From NCBI GenBank assembly GCA_000990325.1, contig LBPS01000006.1, positions 1 to 33,838 on the forward strand: 33,838 nt of DNA, read 5' to 3'. Below the pieces are notes generated by a model, which saw only the letters and a program-made list of their open reading frames with translations, was not told the DNA's origin and made no database searches. This document shows positions 2,458-11,079 of the stretch, piece after piece (the stretch's first letter is position 1; every line of letters starts with the position of its first letter). Source of the DNA: Candidatus Nomurabacteria bacterium GW2011_GWE2_34_25 (GTDB lineage: Bacteria > Patescibacteriota > Minisyncoccia > Phycocordibacterales > UBA9973). A program made the translations under genes and the position numbers.

Positions 2458-3066
2458 TTATAAACGAACTATTTCTCCTATATTTCTATTTCCTACTCTG
2501 TTTTTTACCATTTTAAAAGTTTCTGGTGCCTCTAATCCTATAATAACCATGGGCACTGTTAAAATTCTATCCAATGGTATTAAATATCTACAAATTTTTT
2601 CAAATTCACCAACAGCACTATCAAAAGCACCTGCCCTTTTTAGTTTACTTGTAGCACAAATAAGGACAGCTACTTCTGTTTGTATTGCTTTTTGGACATG
2701 ATTTAACTCACCTGCTAAAACAGGTTTAATTAAATTCCATGCTATTGCTTCTCCATGATTAAATGCAACTTCTATAGAAATTTTATCTTTAGCAAAATCT
2801 AATCTCCACTTACTTTCCTTAAAACCTTCATCTTGAAAAATTGGGGACTCTTTAGACCATCCAACTGCAGACAAACGATCTTTAATTAAATCATTAATGG
2901 CATAAGAAAGACTCATTTTTCCTGCATATTTTAAATTATGCTTATCTATAATGTCTTGGTCAGAAATATTAGTTATTGCAGTTTTAATTTCTTCAAAAAG
3001 ACCTGAATATCGGGCTTCTGCTAGTATAATGTCTCCTTGTTTGTGTGATTTGGTGGTGAAATTCAT
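2458..3066 (-). CDS. type II restriction endonuclease, BglII/BstYI-like
   Basis: 202 residues from the chosen ATG. The core WRLDFAKDKISIEVAF has D90 and E99 nine residues apart (numbered from this start), the same spacing as D84/E93 of BglII, followed by V-A where BglII has V-Q. This fits the PD-(D/E)XK nucleases that cut sequences centred on GATC. The gene diverges from a C5 cytosine methyltransferase 73 bp away, which supports a restriction role. I chose the start at 3066 because a TTGATC / 17-bp / TTTAAT promoter on this strand ends 7 nt upstream, giving a leaderless mRNA. An in-frame ATG at 3087 lies upstream of where that transcript would begin. The exact recognition sequence cannot be read from the protein. 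Confidence 0.8.
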   Translation of the reverse strand: MNFTTKSHKQGDIILAEARYSGLFEEIKTAITNISDQDIIDKHNLKYAGKMSLSYAINDLIKDRLSAVGWSKESPIFQDEGFKESKWRLDFAKDKISIEVAFNHGEAIAWNLIKPVLAGELNHVQKAIQTEVAVLICATSKLKRAGAFDSAVGEFEKICRYLIPLDRILTVPMVIIGLEAPETFKMVKNRVGNRNIGEIVRL

Positions 3067-3139
3067 AATTTTTATTAAACAATACATTTAATGGTAGATC
3101 AAGGTTGATCAATTGTCAATTAGGTGCTATTATTTAGGT
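3067..3139. promoter_or_regulatory. divergent R-M promoters sharing a GATC palindrome
   Basis: Plus strand: -35 TTGATC (3105-3110), 17-bp spacer, -10 TATTAT (3128-3133), start codon at 3140. Minus strand: -35 TTGATC (revcomp of 3097-3102), 17-bp spacer, -10 TTTAAT, start codon at 3066. The two -35 boxes form one palindrome, GATCAA-GG-TTGATC (3097-3110), so any protein or methyl mark on it would affect both genes. Both messages are predicted to be leaderless. Confidence 0.75.
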
Positions 3140-4405
3140 ATGGTAAAACCAAAGAAATCTATATTAAAAGTTGCTGAATTGTTTGCAGGTGTTGGAGGTT
3201 TTCGTATTGGACTTGATAGAGCAAGTAAGAAAGATTCGGGTTATATCACAGTATGGAATAACCAATGGGAACCAGCGACAAAAAAACAACATGCCTCAGA
3301 AACTTATATTGCTAGGTTTGGAGAAGAAGGACACTCTAATGTTGATATAGCTAAAGTTAAGACGAATGAAATTCCTAACCACGATTTATTAGTAGGGGGT
3401 TTTCCATGCCAAGACTATTCAGTTGCAAGAAATTTAGGAAGTTCTAATGGTATTATTGGTAAAAAAGGTGTTCTTTGGTGGGAAATTCATAGAATATTAA
3501 AAGAAAAAGGTAAAAATGCCCCTTCTTATTTAATGTTAGAAAACGTTGATAGATTATTAAAGTCTCCTGCTTTACAAAGAGGTAGAGATTTTGCAATGAT
3601 TATTTCTTCTTTAAATGATTTAGATTATATTGTTGAGTGGAGAGTCATAAACGCCGCAGATTATGGAATGCCACAAAGAAGGAGAAGAACTTTTATTATG
3701 GGATATAAAAAAGGAACTTCTATTTATAATAAAATATTTAAACTTAATAATCATTCTGATTGGATAAAGAAAGGAGGAGTAATTTCTTCTGCTTTTCCTG
3801 TTTTGCAAACAAAAGAAATACCATCCGAATTTACAATAGTTGGAGACTTACCAAAGATAAGTGAAACTTTTAATAAAGAGAATCCTACAAAAACTCTTTT
3901 TGCTAACTCAGGTATCTCAATTAAAAGAAAAATTTATACACTGGCAACTACCCCAAATTATGAAGGAGAAAGAACTACACTAAAAGATATAATAATAGAC
4001 GAAAAAGATGTTCCTCAAGAATTTTTTATTAAAAAAGAAGATTTACCAAAATGGGAATATTTAAAAGGAGCCAAAAGTGATAAAAGAACAACAGCTAGTG
4101 GATTTTCTTTTGTTTATACAGAAGGAGCAATGGTATTCCCTGATTCTCTTGATAAGCCTTCTCGAACTATTATAACAGCAGAAGGTGGTTCTACTCCATC
4201 TCGTTTTAAACATGTAATAAAAACACCTTCTGGAAAGTTAAGGAGACTTACTCCAGTAGAATTAGAAAAATTATGCATGTTTCCTCCCAATCATACAGTT
4301 GGTCAACCTGACGTAAAAAGAGCCTTTTTTATGGGCAACGCCTTAGTTGTAGGAGTTATAGAAAAACTTGGTAAATCATTAAAAAAACAGATTGATTTAA
4401 ATTAA
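3140..4405 (+). CDS. DNA (cytosine-5) methyltransferase of the R-M system
   Basis: 421 residues. Motif I VAELFAGVGGF (AdoMet binding) lies near the N-terminus, motif IV GGFPCQDYS holds the catalytic Cys (about C90), motif VI is ENV (about 134-136), motif VIII is QRRRR (about 179-183) and motif X is GNALVVGVIEKL at the end. All main C5 motifs are present in the usual order and the length is typical. The target-recognition region between VIII and X determines specificity and should match that of the neighbouring BglII-like nuclease. A TTG at 3113 would add nine residues, but the promoter places the transcript start at the ATG of 3140. The gene ends 1 nt from the convergent RNase H-fold gene. 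Confidence 0.93.
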   Translation: MVKPKKSILKVAELFAGVGGFRIGLDRASKKDSGYITVWNNQWEPATKKQHASETYIARFGEEGHSNVDIAKVKTNEIPNHDLLVGGFPCQDYSVARNLGSSNGIIGKKGVLWWEIHRILKEKGKNAPSYLMLENVDRLLKSPALQRGRDFAMIISSLNDLDYIVEWRVINAADYGMPQRRRRTFIMGYKKGTSIYNKIFKLNNHSDWIKKGGVISSAFPVLQTKEIPSEFTIVGDLPKISETFNKENPTKTLFANSGISIKRKIYTLATTPNYEGERTTLKDIIIDEKDVPQEFFIKKEDLPKWEYLKGAKSDKRTTASGFSFVYTEGAMVFPDSLDKPSRTIITAEGGSTPSRFKHVIKTPSGKLRRLTPVELEKLCMFPPNHTVGQPDVKRAFFMGNALVVGVIEKLGKSLKKQIDLN

Positions 4406-5334: not shown

Positions 5335-5835
5335 CTATAATAATTGCTCTAAATTCTTATAATATTTTTCCATTTTTGTTTCCCAATTTTGGGGATAATA
5401 CAATTTATCGCTACCTTTTAGTCTTATTGGTAAATATCTTACATTTGATACCCCATGTTTTTTATTATTTTTTCCTAGTGTATTTCTCCATTTATCATGA
5501 CCTTCTCTAAGAAGAGGGCAAACTATATTACTTGGAATAACCCAAAAATCTGGTTCTCTTTCAAATTCATTCAATTTTACAAAAATATAATAGAAGTCAT
5601 CTGATTGTCCTGTTTCGTCTTTAATAGATAAAATAAAACCATTTGTATTTTCAACCTCTTTCGTCTTTATAGATATCTTTGATAATTTTCCTTTTGGGCT
5701 AAGTGTTAGAATATCATATTTTTCAGCTCTACCAAGGGTTATTGTCGCTACAAAATTAAGAGCAGATAATCTCGAAGCTATGTAATACTCCCCAGCATTT
5801 CCTATATTTTGCTTTTGTGTTTTTTGTTTAGCCAT
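5335..5835 (-). CDS. PD-(D/E)XK nuclease-like protein
   Basis: 166 residues. GNAGEYYIASRLSAL (E16 in the first helix), then KYDIL (D41) and ISIKTK (K57/K59), give the E...D...xK layout of the restriction-endonuclease fold, like small resolvase-like and DUF4365-like proteins. The acidic residue usually found two before the catalytic Lys is replaced by S55, so activity is uncertain. A TATAAT -10 box lies 10 nt upstream of the ATG, predicting a 5' leader of only a few bases. A 39-bp repeat upstream is shared with the RNase H-fold gene, suggesting common control. Confidence 0.55.
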   Translation of the reverse strand: MAKQKTQKQNIGNAGEYYIASRLSALNFVATITLGRAEKYDILTLSPKGKLSKISIKTKEVENTNGFILSIKDETGQSDDFYYIFVKLNEFEREPDFWVIPSNIVCPLLREGHDKWRNTLGKNNKKHGVSNVRYLPIRLKGSDKLYYPQNWETKMEKYYKNLEQLL

Positions 5836-5904
5836 ATGTCTCTACATTATACCTTATATTGTAATTTAGCCTATAAACCCTAATAAGTTCCATTAAGTCC
5901 ACAC

Positions 5905-5943
5905 AAAAAAGCGATTATATGCTAAGACAATGCGATTTACACA
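5905..5943 (-). repeat. 39-bp promoter-proximal repeat, copy 2
   Basis: Partner of 5269-5307. The gap around it (5836-6080) otherwise holds only a weak 47-codon ORF (5930-6073, plus strand) with no homology that I recognise. Confidence 0.5.
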
Positions 5944-6080
5944 GCGAAAACAGCAGACCATACAGAAACCATCGATATTAAGAAATATGAGCAAGACAAG
6001 CGATGTTTTGCGAGAATCATATGAAATGACATATTTAGGACGGGTAACATTTTTGAAGATAATTTATAATTAAGATATTA

Positions 6081-6518
6081 ATGACAAAAGATACAGAAAA
6101 ATTTAATGATGAACAAAACACAATAACTGGGCAACCTCCAGTTAATACTGGTGTTTTAAGAGATGAGTTTGGAAAAATTCTTCCTGGTTCTAAATCTTTA
6201 AATCCTAACGGAGCACCAAAAGGAAAGAAGCACTTATCTACATTACTTAGACAAGCACTTGAAAAACAGAGTGATATAGAAATTGATGGCAAATATATTA
6301 CTTATGCCGAAGCTATCATTTCTAATTTATTAAAGATAGCGACTAAAGCTCCCGACAGAGAAGCTATTAAGGGTATTGCCGAAGTGTTTGATAGAGATGA
6401 GGGGAAAGCTAGGGGATCACTTAATATTGACCCAGACAATGAAGTTGAGGGCATAGATATAACAATAGTTCACACAGATACAGTCAGTTATAACAGAAAA
6501 CTAAATAATCAAAAATAG
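6081..6518 (+). CDS. DUF5681-like protein
   Basis: 145 residues. LNPNGAPKGKKHLSTLLRQAL matches the N-terminal signature of DUF5681 (NPNGxPKG... followed by a helix), found in phage and mobile-element proteins and often next to terminase genes; its function is not established. The rest is acidic and helical, and the tail (IDITIVHTDT) may be a strand. A TATAAT (6065-6070) lies 10 nt before the start. The gene converges with the LITAF-like gene 16 nt away. No terminase large subunit is present, so a packaging role is not supported here. Confidence 0.6.
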   Translation: MTKDTEKFNDEQNTITGQPPVNTGVLRDEFGKILPGSKSLNPNGAPKGKKHLSTLLRQALEKQSDIEIDGKYITYAEAIISNLLKIATKAPDREAIKGIAEVFDRDEGKARGSLNIDPDNEVEGIDITIVHTDTVSYNRKLNNQK

Positions 6519-6534
6519 ATACTTGAATTATCCA

Positions 6535-6912
6535 TCAGTAGGCAAGTTTAGAAAGAATAACAATTAACAATGCAAAGGCTAAAAAGATACCAAGACCAAT
6601 CATTACTCTTTTCCTTATTTTTATTTCTTCCTTTTTTCCTTCCTCTTGTTTTTTATTTATCTTATCTATTTCTTCTTGAGGTAATTCTTCCTTAACCATT
6701 TTTTGAGCTTTGGGCGAATCCAATGGAATCATATTTTGATTTTTACATTTTGGGCAAACTTGATATCTTGAAGAAGACCTCCATACTGAATAAATTAAAC
6801 CCGGAATAATAAAGAGTAACCATAAAACTATTTCTACTCCCATGTTTCCTTTTATCGCTGTTTCTGTTTTACCTATGTAACCACATTGTGTGCAAGCTAA
6901 TATTTTAGACAT
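6535..6912 (-). CDS. LITAF-like zinc-ribbon membrane protein
   Basis: 125 residues. CTQCG near the N-terminus and CPKC near residue 53 flank a hydrophobic segment (about 27-45, VLWLLFIIPGLIYSVW). This is the arrangement of LITAF-type domains, in which two CxxC halves form one zinc site and the hydrophobic part inserts into the membrane. A Lys/Glu-rich helix follows, then a second membrane segment at the C-terminus (about 103-122). This is the only complete gene in the window that I found to end in TGA. It lies just downstream of the structured RNA candidate at 6940-7115, on the same strand. Confidence 0.55.
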   Translation of the reverse strand: MSKILACTQCGYIGKTETAIKGNMGVEIVLWLLFIIPGLIYSVWRSSSRYQVCPKCKNQNMIPLDSPKAQKMVKEELPQEEIDKINKKQEEGKKEEIKIRKRVMIGLGIFLAFALLIVILSKLAY

Positions 6913-6939
6913 ATATTTAGATAGATTAAATATTAATTA

Positions 6940-7115
6940 TGTGGTGGAACATAAAAAGCCCACCACATAGGTAGAGACCGAAGCCTCTCATATCCGTTTC
7001 CAGATACGGCAGATCGTGCAACCCCATGATGATGGGTTCTTTATGCACGATCTGACTTACTTTCACCATGCCTTTATTCCTAAAGGTTTAGGCTACTTTC
7101 CACATATTAAATTAT
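6940..7115 (-). ncRNA. structured RNA candidate or long leader of the downstream gene
   Basis: A gap of about 300 bases rich in compensated pairing. On the minus strand a TATAAT (7122-7127) could start a transcript near 7115. From 5' to 3' it would hold: CCTAAA/TTTAGG or the alternative CCTTT/AAAGG; an 11-bp stem CAGATCGTGCA/TGCACGATCTG (7010-7020 with 7044-7054) capped by an AACCC/GGGTT hairpin; a six-base stem AGAGGC/GUCUCU with a UUCG tetraloop; and a 10-bp stem TATGTGGTGG/CCACCACATA (about 6939-6970). A UUCG loop closed by C-G forms only in minus-strand RNA. I do not recognise a known family. It may be a stand-alone RNA or a regulatory leader of the gene starting at 6912. Confidence 0.5.
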
Positions 7116-7219
7116 GCTGTAATTATACCAACTTTAGTGTAAAATAGGAACTATAAGCTAGTTTTTAGTTTTTTATCTACTATATAGGGTAAAAAGCTGA
7201 AAACTAAAATATTTATATT

Positions 7220-7927
7220 ATGACTAAAAATAACATAGAAAATATACTTTCTAGCTATACTGAAAGTGATATAGAAAAAATAAAAACTATTTTGGAAGTA
7301 ATTGATATTAGGTTATCTATCAATAACAAGCCATATATCATATATATTCCCTTTATAGATTTCCCTAATAGTCTTAACAGATTTGAAATAATTGATTTAT
7401 TGCATAAATTAGACAAAGAGTTAGGAGTAATAAAATTTACTCAAATTACAGATGGTCAAAAGATTGCAGAACAAGAGGTTTGCATTAGAATTACAGATGA
7501 TAAAGAAAAATTTAATACATTAATACAAATTATTAATAAAAAATATAAAAATAATAAAATTATAAAAAAGAAAGAGCAACCAGTTTCCTTACCAACATTA
7601 TGGTTGGCAAAAAAAGATGATGGAAATTATTACTATGATGGAAATCGTTTTTATATAAAAAATAAAAAAACAAAATACACTATTATTTTAGATGTAATTT
7701 ATTCATTAAAACCAGAAGGTGGAAAAGTTGAATATAAAAAAATAATAGAACTTTGTAAAAAAAGAGGAAAAAATATAAACAAAAAGTCTATTCTTAGAGC
7801 ATTAACTGGGAAAGATGCAACTTTATTTAGATATATAAAAGAAATAAAACAAAAATTACCATACGATATGGATTTGTTTGTTGCAATGCAAGATGGTAAA
7901 GAAATAGAATTTAATAATAAAAAATAA
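7220..7927 (+). CDS. unknown protein, lysine-rich
   Basis: 235 residues with no family I recognise. The N-terminal half (1-115) alternates strands and helices. A Lys/Asn-rich linker (about 108-122) leads to a C-terminal region (about 145-205) with DVIYSLKPEGGKVEYKKIIE and KKSILRALTG, which could be a winged-helix or other small DNA-binding module. It is followed by a good terminator (7946-7976). Position between the RNA candidate and the replication-type ATPase suggests an element maintenance function, but this is only context. Confidence 0.55.
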   Translation: MTKNNIENILSSYTESDIEKIKTILEVIDIRLSINNKPYIIYIPFIDFPNSLNRFEIIDLLHKLDKELGVIKFTQITDGQKIAEQEVCIRITDDKEKFNTLIQIINKKYKNNKIIKKKEQPVSLPTLWLAKKDDGNYYYDGNRFYIKNKKTKYTIILDVIYSLKPEGGKVEYKKIIELCKKRGKNINKKSILRALTGKDATLFRYIKEIKQKLPYDMDLFVAMQDGKEIEFNNKK

Positions 7928-7945
7928 TTTCTCGTGAATTCTCTT

Positions 7946-7976
7946 AAAACTAGTATAAAAATACTGGTTTTTTCTT
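7946..7976 (+). terminator. intrinsic terminator
   Basis: Stem AAAACTAGTAT (7946-7956) with ATACTGGTTTT (7961-7971), one G-U pair and an AAAA loop, followed by a T-run. It ends the gene at 7220-7927. Confidence 0.75.
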
Positions 7977-8029
7977 TTAGTAATAAGCCATATTTGGATA
8001 AGGGAGAAATAAAGAGAAATACTAGGATA

Positions 8030-8057
8030 CACACATAAATTTTATAATTTATGTGTG
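8030..8057. promoter_or_regulatory. palindrome containing a -10 box
   Basis: Perfect 12-bp inverted repeat (8030-8041 with 8046-8057, 4-nt loop) with TATAAT at 8043-8048 in its centre. A GTG start codon follows 6 nt after the -10 box. A repressor on this dyad would block the promoter of the small ORF and of the replication-type ATPase behind it. Confidence 0.55.
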
Positions 8058-8192
8058 GAAGAAAAAAATAAAAATGAAATAGGAGAAAAAACTATTGAGC
8101 AATTTGCTCTTATTTTAGTCGCACTTATTGATGAAATCCATACTCCTAAAGACAAAGACTCGAAATCTTATTTTGAGGAAATTAAAAATTAA
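8055..8192 (+). CDS. small ORF, 45 residues, GTG start
   Basis: Begins VEEKNKNEIGEKTIEQFALI and continues LVALIDEIHT, an acidic helical peptide. The GTG lies exactly 6 nt after TATAAT, the same geometry as many genes in this window, which supports a leaderless start. It ends 14 nt before the ATPase gene, so they could be co-transcribed. The frame is open upstream to 8010, so it could also be the remnant of a longer gene. Confidence 0.4.
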   Translation: MEEKNKNEIGEKTIEQFALILVALIDEIHTPKDKDSKSYFEEIKN

Positions 8193-8206
8193 ACACCAAA
8201 ATCAAT

Positions 8207-9469
8207 ATGAATATAGAAGAAATATTAGTAAAAAATAAAATAGTTTTTGAGGACATGGGTGATTATATAGCAACTTATTGTCCTTTCTGTGATAAATCGT
8301 ATGCAGGATATGATACAGCCACTCTTAATATAGATATGAGAACAGGTTATGTAAATTGTTCAGCTTGTAAGAAAGGTTTTAAAGTTGAAGATGTTTTAGA
8401 AAAATTAGGAATTAATATAATAGAAAAATCTTCTACAACAGAATTAATAAAAATAAATAAAGATGACTCTAAGGATATTGATTATAAAGGGTCTAGTCTT
8501 ATTAGTGTTAAAGACATATTAGCATTAAATTTTGATCCACAAGAGTGGCTTATCGAAAATTTAATACCACTTGAAGGGACTGCTGTAATTTCGGGGAGCC
8601 CAGGTAATTATAAAAGTTGGCTTACTCAAGATATTGCTAGGTGTGTTGCTCTTGGCACAGATTTTTTAGAAAACTTTAAGGTAAAACAAGGGTCTGTTTT
8701 AGTGGTTGATAGAGAAAATCATTTACGGTTAGTAAAAGAACGCATAAAGAAACTTAAAATTCCAGAAGATGCAACAATTCAATATTTTAAAAGTGATGAT
8801 TTTGGAATTGATAATAAAAAATGTTTTGACGATCTCATTTCAAAAATAACTCAATTTAATATAAAACTGGTGATATTTGATTCATTAGTTAGAATACATT
8901 CGGGTGATGAAAATGACGCAAAACAAATGTCTAAAGTATTACAACAATTTACAAAAATCAATAAACTGGGGGCTACTGTTATATTTGTTCATCATCATCG
9001 AAAAGAAAATGGTTATCAAAAAAGTTCAGGTCAAAGCTTAAGAGGTTCATCAGATATATTAGCTTTTGTTGATACTGCTTTTGTTGTTAAAAAAGGGAAA
9101 GAAAAAGGGTGTATTACCATGGAAACCTTAAAACTCCGACAAGCTACTGAATTAGAACCATTTAATATAGATATAATCGAGGATGAAGAATTTATAGGTT
9201 TTAAGTATTCTGGGGTATTTAATTCTTCTAAAGAACAAACAGAAGAAGCCAAAGAAGCCATATTAGAGATATTAGAAGGTAAAAAAACTGTCTTCAATCA
9301 AGATTTTGAGGATGCCTTAAAAGACACTTATAAAAAATCTATAATAAAGATAGCCTTAAAAGAGCTTGAGATATCAGAAATAATTATTAGGAAGAAAGAG
9401 GCACATAATAAACACTCTTTTTGTCTTAAAGAAGACGGAGTCATAACTCGGGTTGATGAAAATAACTAA
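8207..9469 (+). CDS. zinc-finger / RepA-type (AAA_25) ATPase
   Basis: 420 residues. The N-terminus has a CHC2/primase-like zinc ribbon: CPFC (25-28) and CSAC (51-54). The middle is a RecA/DnaB-like ATPase of the RepA type: Walker A GSPGNYKS (130-137), Walker B LVIFD (221-225), sensor-like VHHHRK (261-266) and a GSSD motif near 280. The C-terminus (about 335-415) looks like a winged helix. Such proteins unwind DNA or load helicase at plasmid and phage origins; a zinc ribbon in front recalls primase-helicase fusions, but no TOPRIM catalytic domain is visible. This is the likely replication protein of the element. Confidence 0.8.
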   Translation: MNIEEILVKNKIVFEDMGDYIATYCPFCDKSYAGYDTATLNIDMRTGYVNCSACKKGFKVEDVLEKLGINIIEKSSTTELIKINKDDSKDIDYKGSSLISVKDILALNFDPQEWLIENLIPLEGTAVISGSPGNYKSWLTQDIARCVALGTDFLENFKVKQGSVLVVDRENHLRLVKERIKKLKIPEDATIQYFKSDDFGIDNKKCFDDLISKITQFNIKLVIFDSLVRIHSGDENDAKQMSKVLQQFTKINKLGATVIFVHHHRKENGYQKSSGQSLRGSSDILAFVDTAFVVKKGKEKGCITMETLKLRQATELEPFNIDIIEDEEFIGFKYSGVFNSSKEQTEEAKEAILEILEGKKTVFNQDFEDALKDTYKKSIIKIALKELEISEIIIRKKEAHNKHSFCLKEDGVITRVDENN

Positions 9470-9472
9470 AGA

Positions 9473-9493
9473 TATGATAATTAAAATATCATA
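9473..9493. promoter_or_regulatory. recombinase promoter inside an inverted repeat
   Basis: TATGATA (9473-9479) and TATCATA (9487-9493) are inverted with a 7-nt spacer. TATCAT (9487-9492) is the likely -10 box and ends 6 nt before the recombinase ATG at 9499. The dyad could be an operator for a repressor of the recombinase. Confidence 0.45.
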
Positions 9494-9498
9494 ATTAT

Positions 9499-11079
9499 AT
9501 GAACAAAGAAAAAGAAGAAATAAAGAAAAAAATAGCAGTAATTTATTGTAGGGTTAGCACTCAAGACCAAGCAGATAAAGGTTTGTCTATTGAAGAACAA
9601 GAAAGATTATGTAAAGAAAAAGCCGAACAAGCAGGCTATTCTATCTTGGCAATAATTAAAGATGAAGGGAAAAGTGGTGGAAGTTTGAAAAGAGCAGGAA
9701 TGCAACAATTAATGAAGCTCTCAATTGAGAAGAAAATTGATGCCGTATTTACTGTTCATAGTGATAGAATCGCTCGTAATACAGAAAACTATCTTTATTT
9801 AAGAGCTTTGTTTCGCAACAATGATGTTGAATTGTTTTTTATTCAATTACCCAATTTAGATGATTCAGCGGGTTCAAAAATGATGGACTCAATGTTTGCT
9901 ATTGTAAATCAATATCAAAGAGATATAACTTCTGATAAGGTAACTATGACAATGGAGGGAAAAGCGAGGTTAGGATATTTTCCTGCACTTGCTCCACTTG
10001 GATATAAAAATATAACAAGACTAGACCCGACAGTTGAAAGAGCTGGTCAGAAAATTGTGGTTAAAGATCCAGAAGTAGCACCCCTTGTTAAAAAAGGATT
10101 TGAGCTTTATGCTACAGGAAATTTTAGTGTCTACGATATAACAGATATTCTATATGAAAAAGGATTAAGAACTAAATATGGAAAAAAGTTAACTTATAGC
10201 AGATTGTATGATGTTCTTAGAAATCCTTTTTATATCGGAGAAGTTCATTGGGGTAAGGTTCATTTAAAAGAAGGTAAGCATGAACACTTAATGGATAAAG
10301 AATTATTTTATTCAGTTCAAAGATTATTAACAATGAAAAACGGACATCTTTGTAGGAGAAGAAAGTATCAATGGTTATTAAGTGGTTTTCTTAGGTGTCA
10401 TACTCATCAATGCAGATATACAGCAGAATATCATTTAAACAAGAGAATAGGCTATTATCATTGCACCAATAGAAATGGTTGTGGAAAATATGTAGAAGTT
10501 AATAAATTGGAAAGTATGATTGAAGATAAATTTAAAGAGATTGAATTTAGTCAGAAATTTATTGACTTAGTCATTGAAAAGGTTAAAAGTGTATTTTATG
10601 AAAGAAGAAAGCTTTATGACGACAAAAGAAAATCACTTATAAATCAAAAGACAGTTTTTGAGTTAAAAAGAAAGTCAGCCGAGGATAAGCTTTTAGCTAA
10701 TGTGATTACAGATGATGATTTTAGAAGAATAAAAGAAGAAATAAACGAAGAATTAGAAAGTCTTAATAAAAGGACGATTGAACTTGAAAAAGAAAGAAGA
10801 ATAAATATGGATGTCGCCCAAGAAGTATTAAATCTTTCAAGAAATATTTATGATACATATTCAAAGGCACCACATAACCTAAAAAGACATCTTTTAGCAT
10901 TCTTTTGGGAGAAATTTGAGATAAAAGATGAAGTTATAATAAAATCCTATCCGTCCCTACTTTTTGCTGAACTTTTGAAGTTAGAACAAGCATTTTACAA
11001 AAAACCAAATAGAGAAAATCCTTATGAATCAAAAGGATTTTCTACTATTATAAATTCTACTGCATTGTCCTCTCGGTAG
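9499..11079 (+). CDS. large serine recombinase (integrase of the element)
   Basis: 526 residues. Resolvase catalytic domain (11-155): YCRVSTQDQ with R18 and nucleophile S20, and HSDRIARN with R90/R93. Recombinase domain about 160-275. Zinc ribbon with C300, C305, C322 and C328. Coiled coil about 365-440. These are the hallmarks of phage-type large serine integrases, which join attP to attB with a 2-bp overlap. The last codons TCC TCT CGG TAG lie within the tRNA-Lys gene on the other strand, so the attachment core is inside the coding region and the last two residues are host-encoded. In the excised circle the same frame would run 35 codons further (387-494). Confidence 0.95.
   Translation: MNKEKEEIKKKIAVIYCRVSTQDQADKGLSIEEQERLCKEKAEQAGYSILAIIKDEGKSGGSLKRAGMQQLMKLSIEKKIDAVFTVHSDRIARNTENYLYLRALFRNNDVELFFIQLPNLDDSAGSKMMDSMFAIVNQYQRDITSDKVTMTMEGKARLGYFPALAPLGYKNITRLDPTVERAGQKIVVKDPEVAPLVKKGFELYATGNFSVYDITDILYEKGLRTKYGKKLTYSRLYDVLRNPFYIGEVHWGKVHLKEGKHEHLMDKELFYSVQRLLTMKNGHLCRRRKYQWLLSGFLRCHTHQCRYTAEYHLNKRIGYYHCTNRNGCGKYVEVNKLESMIEDKFKEIEFSQKFIDLVIEKVKSVFYERRKLYDDKRKSLINQKTVFELKRKSAEDKLLANVITDDDFRRIKEEINEELESLNKRTIELEKERRINMDVAQEVLNLSRNIYDTYSKAPHNLKRHLLAFFWEKFEIKDEVIIKSYPSLLFAELLKLEQAFYKKPNRENPYESKGFSTIINSTALSSR
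11048..11070 (+). repeat. right attachment-site core and half dyad
   Basis: ATTGTCC at 11064-11070 matches 380-386. TTATAAATTCTACTG (11048-11062) is a near inverted copy of CAGGAGATTATTATAA (393-408), with one extra base and two changes. In the circle these would flank the core as an imperfect dyad, as expected for an attP bound by an integrase dimer. Confidence 0.7.

Follow-up and report, generated by a model that had tools for sequence, protein, structure and literature searches.

How does a restriction-modification (R-M) pair control its own methyltransferase when no regulator adjoins it? Such a pair needs enough methyltransferase before its nuclease acts, yet too little to protect invading DNA. 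The question is raised here by two genes that diverge from a 73-bp intergenic gap (3067-3139) in the 33,838-nucleotide stretch of DNA that was analyzed (the window), a leftward ORF at 2458-3066 lying on one side and a rightward ORF at 3140-4405 on the other. The initial annotation of this gap had read it as a switch in which the promoters of both genes share one GATC-containing palindrome.

A divergent R-M pair and its predicted target

The leftward ORF (minus strand, 202 aa, ATG start at 3066) is predicted to encode a restriction endonuclease of the BglII/BstYI family. It matches PF09195 (Endonuc-BglII) in a profile search with E=3.6e-09 and 37 bits, above the curated cut-off of 26, and BstYI is its sole credible sequence match in the PDB (phmmer, E=0.001). 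Residues D90, E99, N103, and H104 are invariant across 31/31 homologues, D90 and E99 being the conserved active-site residues known from the family. The glutamine that follows E-V in BstYI is replaced by alanine in most of these 31 homologues, and the invariant E-V-(A)-F-N-H marks a distinct subfamily; the present enzyme also differs from the known BglII/BstYI endonucleases in having a C5 methyltransferase as its partner. The start at 3066 agrees with the homologues, as the alignment begins at residue 1 for most of them. Of its relatives, 25 lie in genome contigs and 4 on plasmids; a query with the nuclease gave no matches among viral contigs and none in phage records. Because the nuclease is absent from the 196 other Patescibacterial genomes searched, at least 20 of them of the same genus, the R-M pair was probably acquired horizontally.

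The rightward ORF (plus strand, 421 aa) encodes a cytosine-C5 DNA methyltransferase that falls in the Sau3AI-type (GATC) clade, with matches to PF00145 (E=9e-61), TIGR00675, and the PADLOC model MTase_II (E=4.5e-156). The catalytic motifs are intact, ELFAGVGGF, PCQ, ENV, and GNAL being invariant in the aligned clade. Motif I begins at residue 13, and the enzyme has no N-terminal extension or helix-turn-helix (HTH) domain; it is in this respect unlike the regulatory methyltransferases SsoII and Ecl18kI, in which an N-terminal HTH of ~70 residues precedes the catalytic domain (PMC3978073 describes a 71-residue N-terminal regulatory region for M.SsoII). The locus also differs from C-protein systems, with their small HTH gene next to R or M: a search for a control-protein gene among ORFs of at least 80 aa between or directly flanking the two genes found none, and none lies between them because the 73-bp gap is too short to hold one.

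That the methyltransferase recognizes GATC is a prediction well supported by its relatives, through the clade, the partner nucleases, and the literature. The clade is mostly encoded beside nucleases of the Sau3AI/MutH type (GATC), which adjoin the relatives in loci L032, L036, L038, L166, L169, L171, and L172 (plasmid relatives); the closest methyltransferase, that of L139/L174 (~71% identical), has a Sau3AI-type partner, as have six other Patescibacteria and many members of the wider set. For DCM2 of Mycoplasma hominis, a Sau3AI-associated enzyme compared here through the literature only, GAT-m5C was reported from nanopore data and restriction tests (PMC10305163), and PMC4636357 records a GATC-specific m5C enzyme in Mycoplasma hyorhinis. 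Given its Sau3AI-type neighbor, we take the M. hyorhinis gene in L032 to encode that enzyme; alignment and gene neighborhood place the M. hyorhinis gene (taken as Mhy3) in the methyltransferase clade of the window. The window departs from these Sau3AI-type systems in that its nuclease is of the BglII/BstYI type rather than the MutH/Sau3AI type, and the M. hyorhinis gene differs in its turn by lacking the GATC promoter described below. From its family and its partner methyltransferase, the nuclease is expected to cut a GATC-centered site. The locus is, in our reading, a type II R-M pair that joins a BglII-type nuclease to a Sau3AI-type cytosine-5 methyltransferase, both with GATC as their predicted target.

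Two lines of reasoning on specificity were given up. The longer sites of BglII (AGATCT) and BstYI (RGATCY) were ruled out as the site common to all promoters, as the flanks of GATC differ between the window, L024, and L002. GATC avoidance was dropped as proof of specificity, the depletion being too mild: GATC occurs in the genome at 0.74 of expectation (~2.2 per kb), and GCGC, taken for comparison, at 0.73. Sau3AI-type and BglII-type nucleases were seen together beside GATC-type methyltransferase genes in L014, L019, and L023.

A GATC site in the methyltransferase -35 box

Upstream of the methyltransferase gene we find a -35 box, TTGATC (3105-3110, plus strand), that contains GATC and stands 17 bp from an extended -10 element, TGC-TATTAT (3125-3133, with TATTAT at 3128-3133), which ends 6 nt short of the ATG at 3140. 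AT-rich DNA yields many promoter-like sites, and two GATC-containing hexamers might have come to lie in the gap by accident: as a class, such sites number 46 here against 46.4 predicted by chance. The evidence for the promoter consequently rests on conservation.

To assess this, methyltransferase sets were gathered through protein similarity, the promoter never being a criterion, and the 260 bp upstream of the conserved ELFAG motif, which served as anchor, were scanned in 68 dereplicated clade members and 58 other C5 methyltransferases. TTGATC-N17-TANNNT was found upstream of 28/68 clade members, or 31/68 when spacers of 16-18 bp were allowed, with TG at the extended -10 position in 17 of the 28. 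The runner-up among other hexamers in the same scan reached 4/68 and the consensus TTGACA 0/68. Among the controls there was a single positive (1/58), probably L027, a clade member split by its plasmid origin and so mis-sorted. When the -10 was picked blind to the -35, a GATC peak emerged at offset -21 in 25/68 members, far higher than that of any of the 15 remaining palindromic tetramers in the -35 region; the controls gave no GATC peak at this offset under the same procedure.

The 17-bp form is present in all Patescibacteria (14/14), which fall into at least three separate parts of the tree, in 9/23 of the Bacillota and Mycoplasma, in 3/15 Actinomycetota (5 with spacers of 16-18 bp), in 1/2 Burkholderiaceae, and in 1/7 viral or phage contigs; the Campylobacterota (0/6) and Halobacteria (0/1) gave none. 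In the tree, the GATC promoter occurs on all major branches, and the Campylobacterota lack it as a block. The 17-bp spacers have a mean identity of only 32%, indicating that the TTGATC box was held while its surroundings drifted. The whole genome, in ~1.53 million strand-bases, has 36 occurrences of TTGATC-N16..18-TANNNT. Across 22 related loci (360,000 strand-bases), 18 of the 20 TTGATC-17-TANNNT sites are methyltransferase promoters, which leaves a background of ~2 per 360,000 strand-bases outside them. With this background, and with the box kept by 28/68 clade members and by every one of the 14 Patescibacteria, an accidental origin is scarcely credible. L179 and L191 each carry one extra TTGATC-17-TANNNT on the opposite strand, the copy in L191 lying near the methyltransferase promoter.

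The box might also be nothing other than a good -35 element that spread with the gene, its GATC having no regulatory role. The core TTGA of the consensus -35 is indeed intact in TTGATC, and the gene family travels on plasmids and mobile elements. Against this, the consensus TTGACA itself is never used (0/68 vs 28/68 for TTGATC), GATC stayed while the spacers drifted, and the rest of the genome seldom uses TTGATC. A sample of 431 kb holds one case of TTGATC as a -35 box, probably the methyltransferase gene's own, and we accordingly rejected a genome-wide liking for this hexamer. Taken together, we regard a purely structural role of the box as quite improbable.

It should be noted that the GATC promoter is not obligatory in the clade, since there are members free of it: no upstream GATC was found within 260 bp of the anchor in six Campylobacterota, in the M. 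hyorhinis gene, and in several others. In L038, an HTH gene precedes M and upstream GATC is absent; in L034 and L035, GATC adjoins the -35 box instead of forming part of it, as in GATC-TGTTCA-17-TATAAT. In the Campylobacterota loci (L003-L007 and L017), M is followed by R in tandem and the 260 bp scanned ahead of the anchor hold no GATC; control of the methyltransferase must differ in them from the GATC-box type.

The short distance between the -10 element and the ATG had been viewed in the initial annotation as a special feature, a leaderless start closed to other leader control. A survey of 357 genes in 431 kb of the genome (L194-L213 and the window) does not bear this out: a TANNNT -10 (at least 5/6 matches) lies exactly 6 nt before the ATG in 57/357 genes, whereas internal ATGs predict 2.5; the extended -10 TG is present in 42 of these 57, and SD-like 4-mers precede only 12/357 sampled genes. 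The 6-nt spacing of the methyltransferase gene is that of the genome-wide leaderless peak. Other members, L030 and L033 among them, have a greater distance between the -10 and the start, which is preceded by an SD-like stretch, and the mechanism therefore does not include leaderlessness. Leaderless transcription was rejected as a component of the switch, the habit being genome-wide.

The occurrence of a predicted GATC target within the methyltransferase -35 is, as judged from this distribution, a conserved feature of the family. Our literature search found no paper in which Sau3AI-type methyltransferase genes are described as having GATC in their promoters.

The palindrome and the candidate nuclease-side promoters

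The methyltransferase -35 forms the right arm of a palindrome, GATCAA-GG-TTGATC (GATCAAGGTTGATC, 3097-3110), whose two GATC sites, 10 bp apart, are predicted recognition and methylation sites. It occurs as a single copy in the 767-kb genome. GATC pairs with the same 10-bp distance are found in L024, L120, and L140, the identical GATCAAGGTTGATC being present in L140/L176 and the variant GATCAAGATTGATC in L120/L175 and L024; in L002, L141, L142, and L037 the distance is 6 bp.

The left arm, read on the minus strand (3102-3097), offers the nuclease gene a candidate -35, TTGATC, placed 17 bp from a weak candidate -10, TTTAAT (3079-3074), which lies 7 nt before the ATG at 3066 and has no A at the important second position. 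One palindrome would then supply both -35 boxes, and methylation or binding of the methyltransferase would act as a bidirectional switch over both genes. The candidate boxes are 2 bp apart, and two polymerases should not bind simultaneously at this distance; the promoters would be expected to exclude each other. The arrangement recurs in L024, which agrees with the window in the palindrome, in both 17-bp spacers, and on the nuclease side in TTGATC-17-T[TC]TAAT (TTGATC-17-TCTAAT in L024), with TATTGT[TC]TAAT conserved in register. TTGATC is also found upstream of the nuclease in L002, where no good -10 follows at 17 bp.

Several observations argue against such a switch. TTGATC occupies the nuclease -35 position in only 3/31 homologues even when the -10 is relaxed, a count that led us to reject a GATC-containing -35 as a general trait of nuclease genes. 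T[TC]TAAT at 7 nt is not enriched in the genome sample (1 seen vs 0.32 expected). The best promoter-like site on the minus strand here is another one, TTGACA (3119-3114), 17 bp, TACCAT (3096-3091), which scores 10/12, fits better than the weak -10 boxes of the palindrome arm, and holds both GATC sites in its spacer. In L120 and L140, a Sau3AI-type nuclease gene lies upstream in tandem, with the left arm of the palindrome overlapping the end of its reading frame; the palindrome is kept with no nuclease diverging from it and does not, therefore, need a divergent promoter. In L139/L174, the Sau3AI-type nuclease gene is divergent, and a GATC on its side lies close to a TATAAT box without serving as the -35. 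With the assignment of the nuclease promoter depending on a weak -10 and facing the rival TTGACA site, the left arm as the nuclease -35 is weakly supported, and we consider the bidirectional switch a doubtful reading.

The initial annotation thus holds in part. The palindrome, both TTGATC boxes, the 17-bp spacers, and the -10 boxes 6-7 nt before the ATG all lie in the sequence as it described them, and its premise of a recognition sequence containing GATC agrees with the methyltransferase clade and its Sau3AI-type partners. Of its proposal that this site is built into both -35 elements, the methyltransferase half is borne out by the clade, whereas the nuclease half has conservation in L024 in its favor and a poorer -10 in L002, a rival promoter, and the tandem L120 and L140 to set against it.

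Proposed control of the methyltransferase by its own target

The explanation that we favor, and consider probable, is that the methyltransferase promoter carries the enzyme's own target in its -35 box, TTGATC, and that methylation weakens the promoter and caps the amount of enzyme. In an unmethylated cell the promoter would fire and methyltransferase would be made. Once GATC was methylated, the -35 box would gain m5C on both strands, at position 6 and opposite the G at position 3. An m5C opposite the G of TTG would lie in the groove that sigma region 4 contacts. The most likely consequence would be reduced sigma contact and with it a weaker promoter and a capped enzyme level. The predicted GATC methyltransferase would in this way probably sense and limit its own production, and no separate control protein would be needed. 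Against this explanation stand the clade members free of upstream GATC, the mild depletion of GATC in the genome, and the extended -10, with which the methyltransferase promoter may need its -35 less.

In the window and L024, the second GATC, 10 bp away, may also be the -35 of the divergent nuclease gene, and methylation would then tilt the balance between the two genes as well. A shared methylation-sensitive -35 would lower both, which by itself does not explain the delayed nuclease expression that systems of this kind should show; nuclease and methyltransferase would fall together unless competition between the promoters or the one-sided extended -10 separates them. A broader form of the proposal seems to us evenly poised between right and wrong: that a -35 holding the enzyme's own target is how GATC m5C methyltransferases as a family are normally controlled in several phyla, whatever nuclease is attached, and that some Patescibacteria have doubled it so that the resulting palindrome drives the nuclease too, as a regulator-free switch.

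The same anatomy is compatible with the methyltransferase protein sitting on the -35 GATC as a repressor, methylation as such not being the signal. In the eight loci named above (the window, L024, L120, and L140; L002, L141, L142, and L037), the second GATC, which precedes the -35 site by 6 or 10 bp, could then form a two-site operator. We judge this improbable: starting with motif I at residue 13, the enzyme has no extra DNA-binding domain at its N-terminus, unlike the regulatory methyltransferases treated in PMC12707154, its catalytic motifs are intact, and chromosomal GATC sites, at ~2.2 per kb, would offer many competitors.

Methylation of a methyltransferase promoter has precedents in our preferred explanation's sense, with CfrBI, LlaDII, and AhdI given in PMC12707154 as systems in which it regulates the methyltransferase. 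According to the same paper, CfrBI has divergent R and M genes, overlapping and competing promoters, an inverted repeat, and the recognition site inside the methyltransferase promoter (PMC12707154). The window resembles it in its divergent nuclease and methyltransferase genes, its inverted repeat, and the predicted recognition site in the methyltransferase promoter. It differs in the predicted m5C at GATC, in the combination of a Sau3AI-type enzyme with a BglII-type nuclease, all read from sequence alone, in that the site is here the -35 hexamer itself, and in an architecture conserved across phyla and in other gene orders. Regulation of the CfrBI type would also have methylation lower the methyltransferase transcript in favor of the nuclease. 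In LlaDII and AhdI, methylation of the methyltransferase's own promoter affects that gene alone, as stated there (PMC12707154), and this is also the expectation for the tandem relatives found here; the specificities of LlaDII and AhdI differ from that predicted for the window.

The AhdI system also has a control protein, and none adjoins the pair in the window. This type of control is known but rarely reported, and the form described here is apparently new and widespread. The distribution suggests that the whole methyltransferase family uses an own-target promoter, in Patescibacteria, Bacillota, Actinomycetota, one member of the Burkholderiaceae, and one viral contig. Such control can be read from sequence and tested directly on small promoter fragments, and the promoters may serve to predict recognition sites.

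Two features of the surroundings were noted. A 641-aa ORF (511-2436) lies on the same strand as the nuclease gene, 22 bp downstream of it; it gave no matches in Pfam, NCBIfam, or PADLOC and no homologues in the related loci fetched, and has hydrophobic stretches near its C terminus. The region at 5335-11079 beside the R-M pair is a possible integrative element, comprising a PD-(D/E)xK-like ORF and a DUF5681-like ORF (both sub-threshold), an AAA_25 ATPase (8207-9469), and a large serine recombinase (9499-11079).
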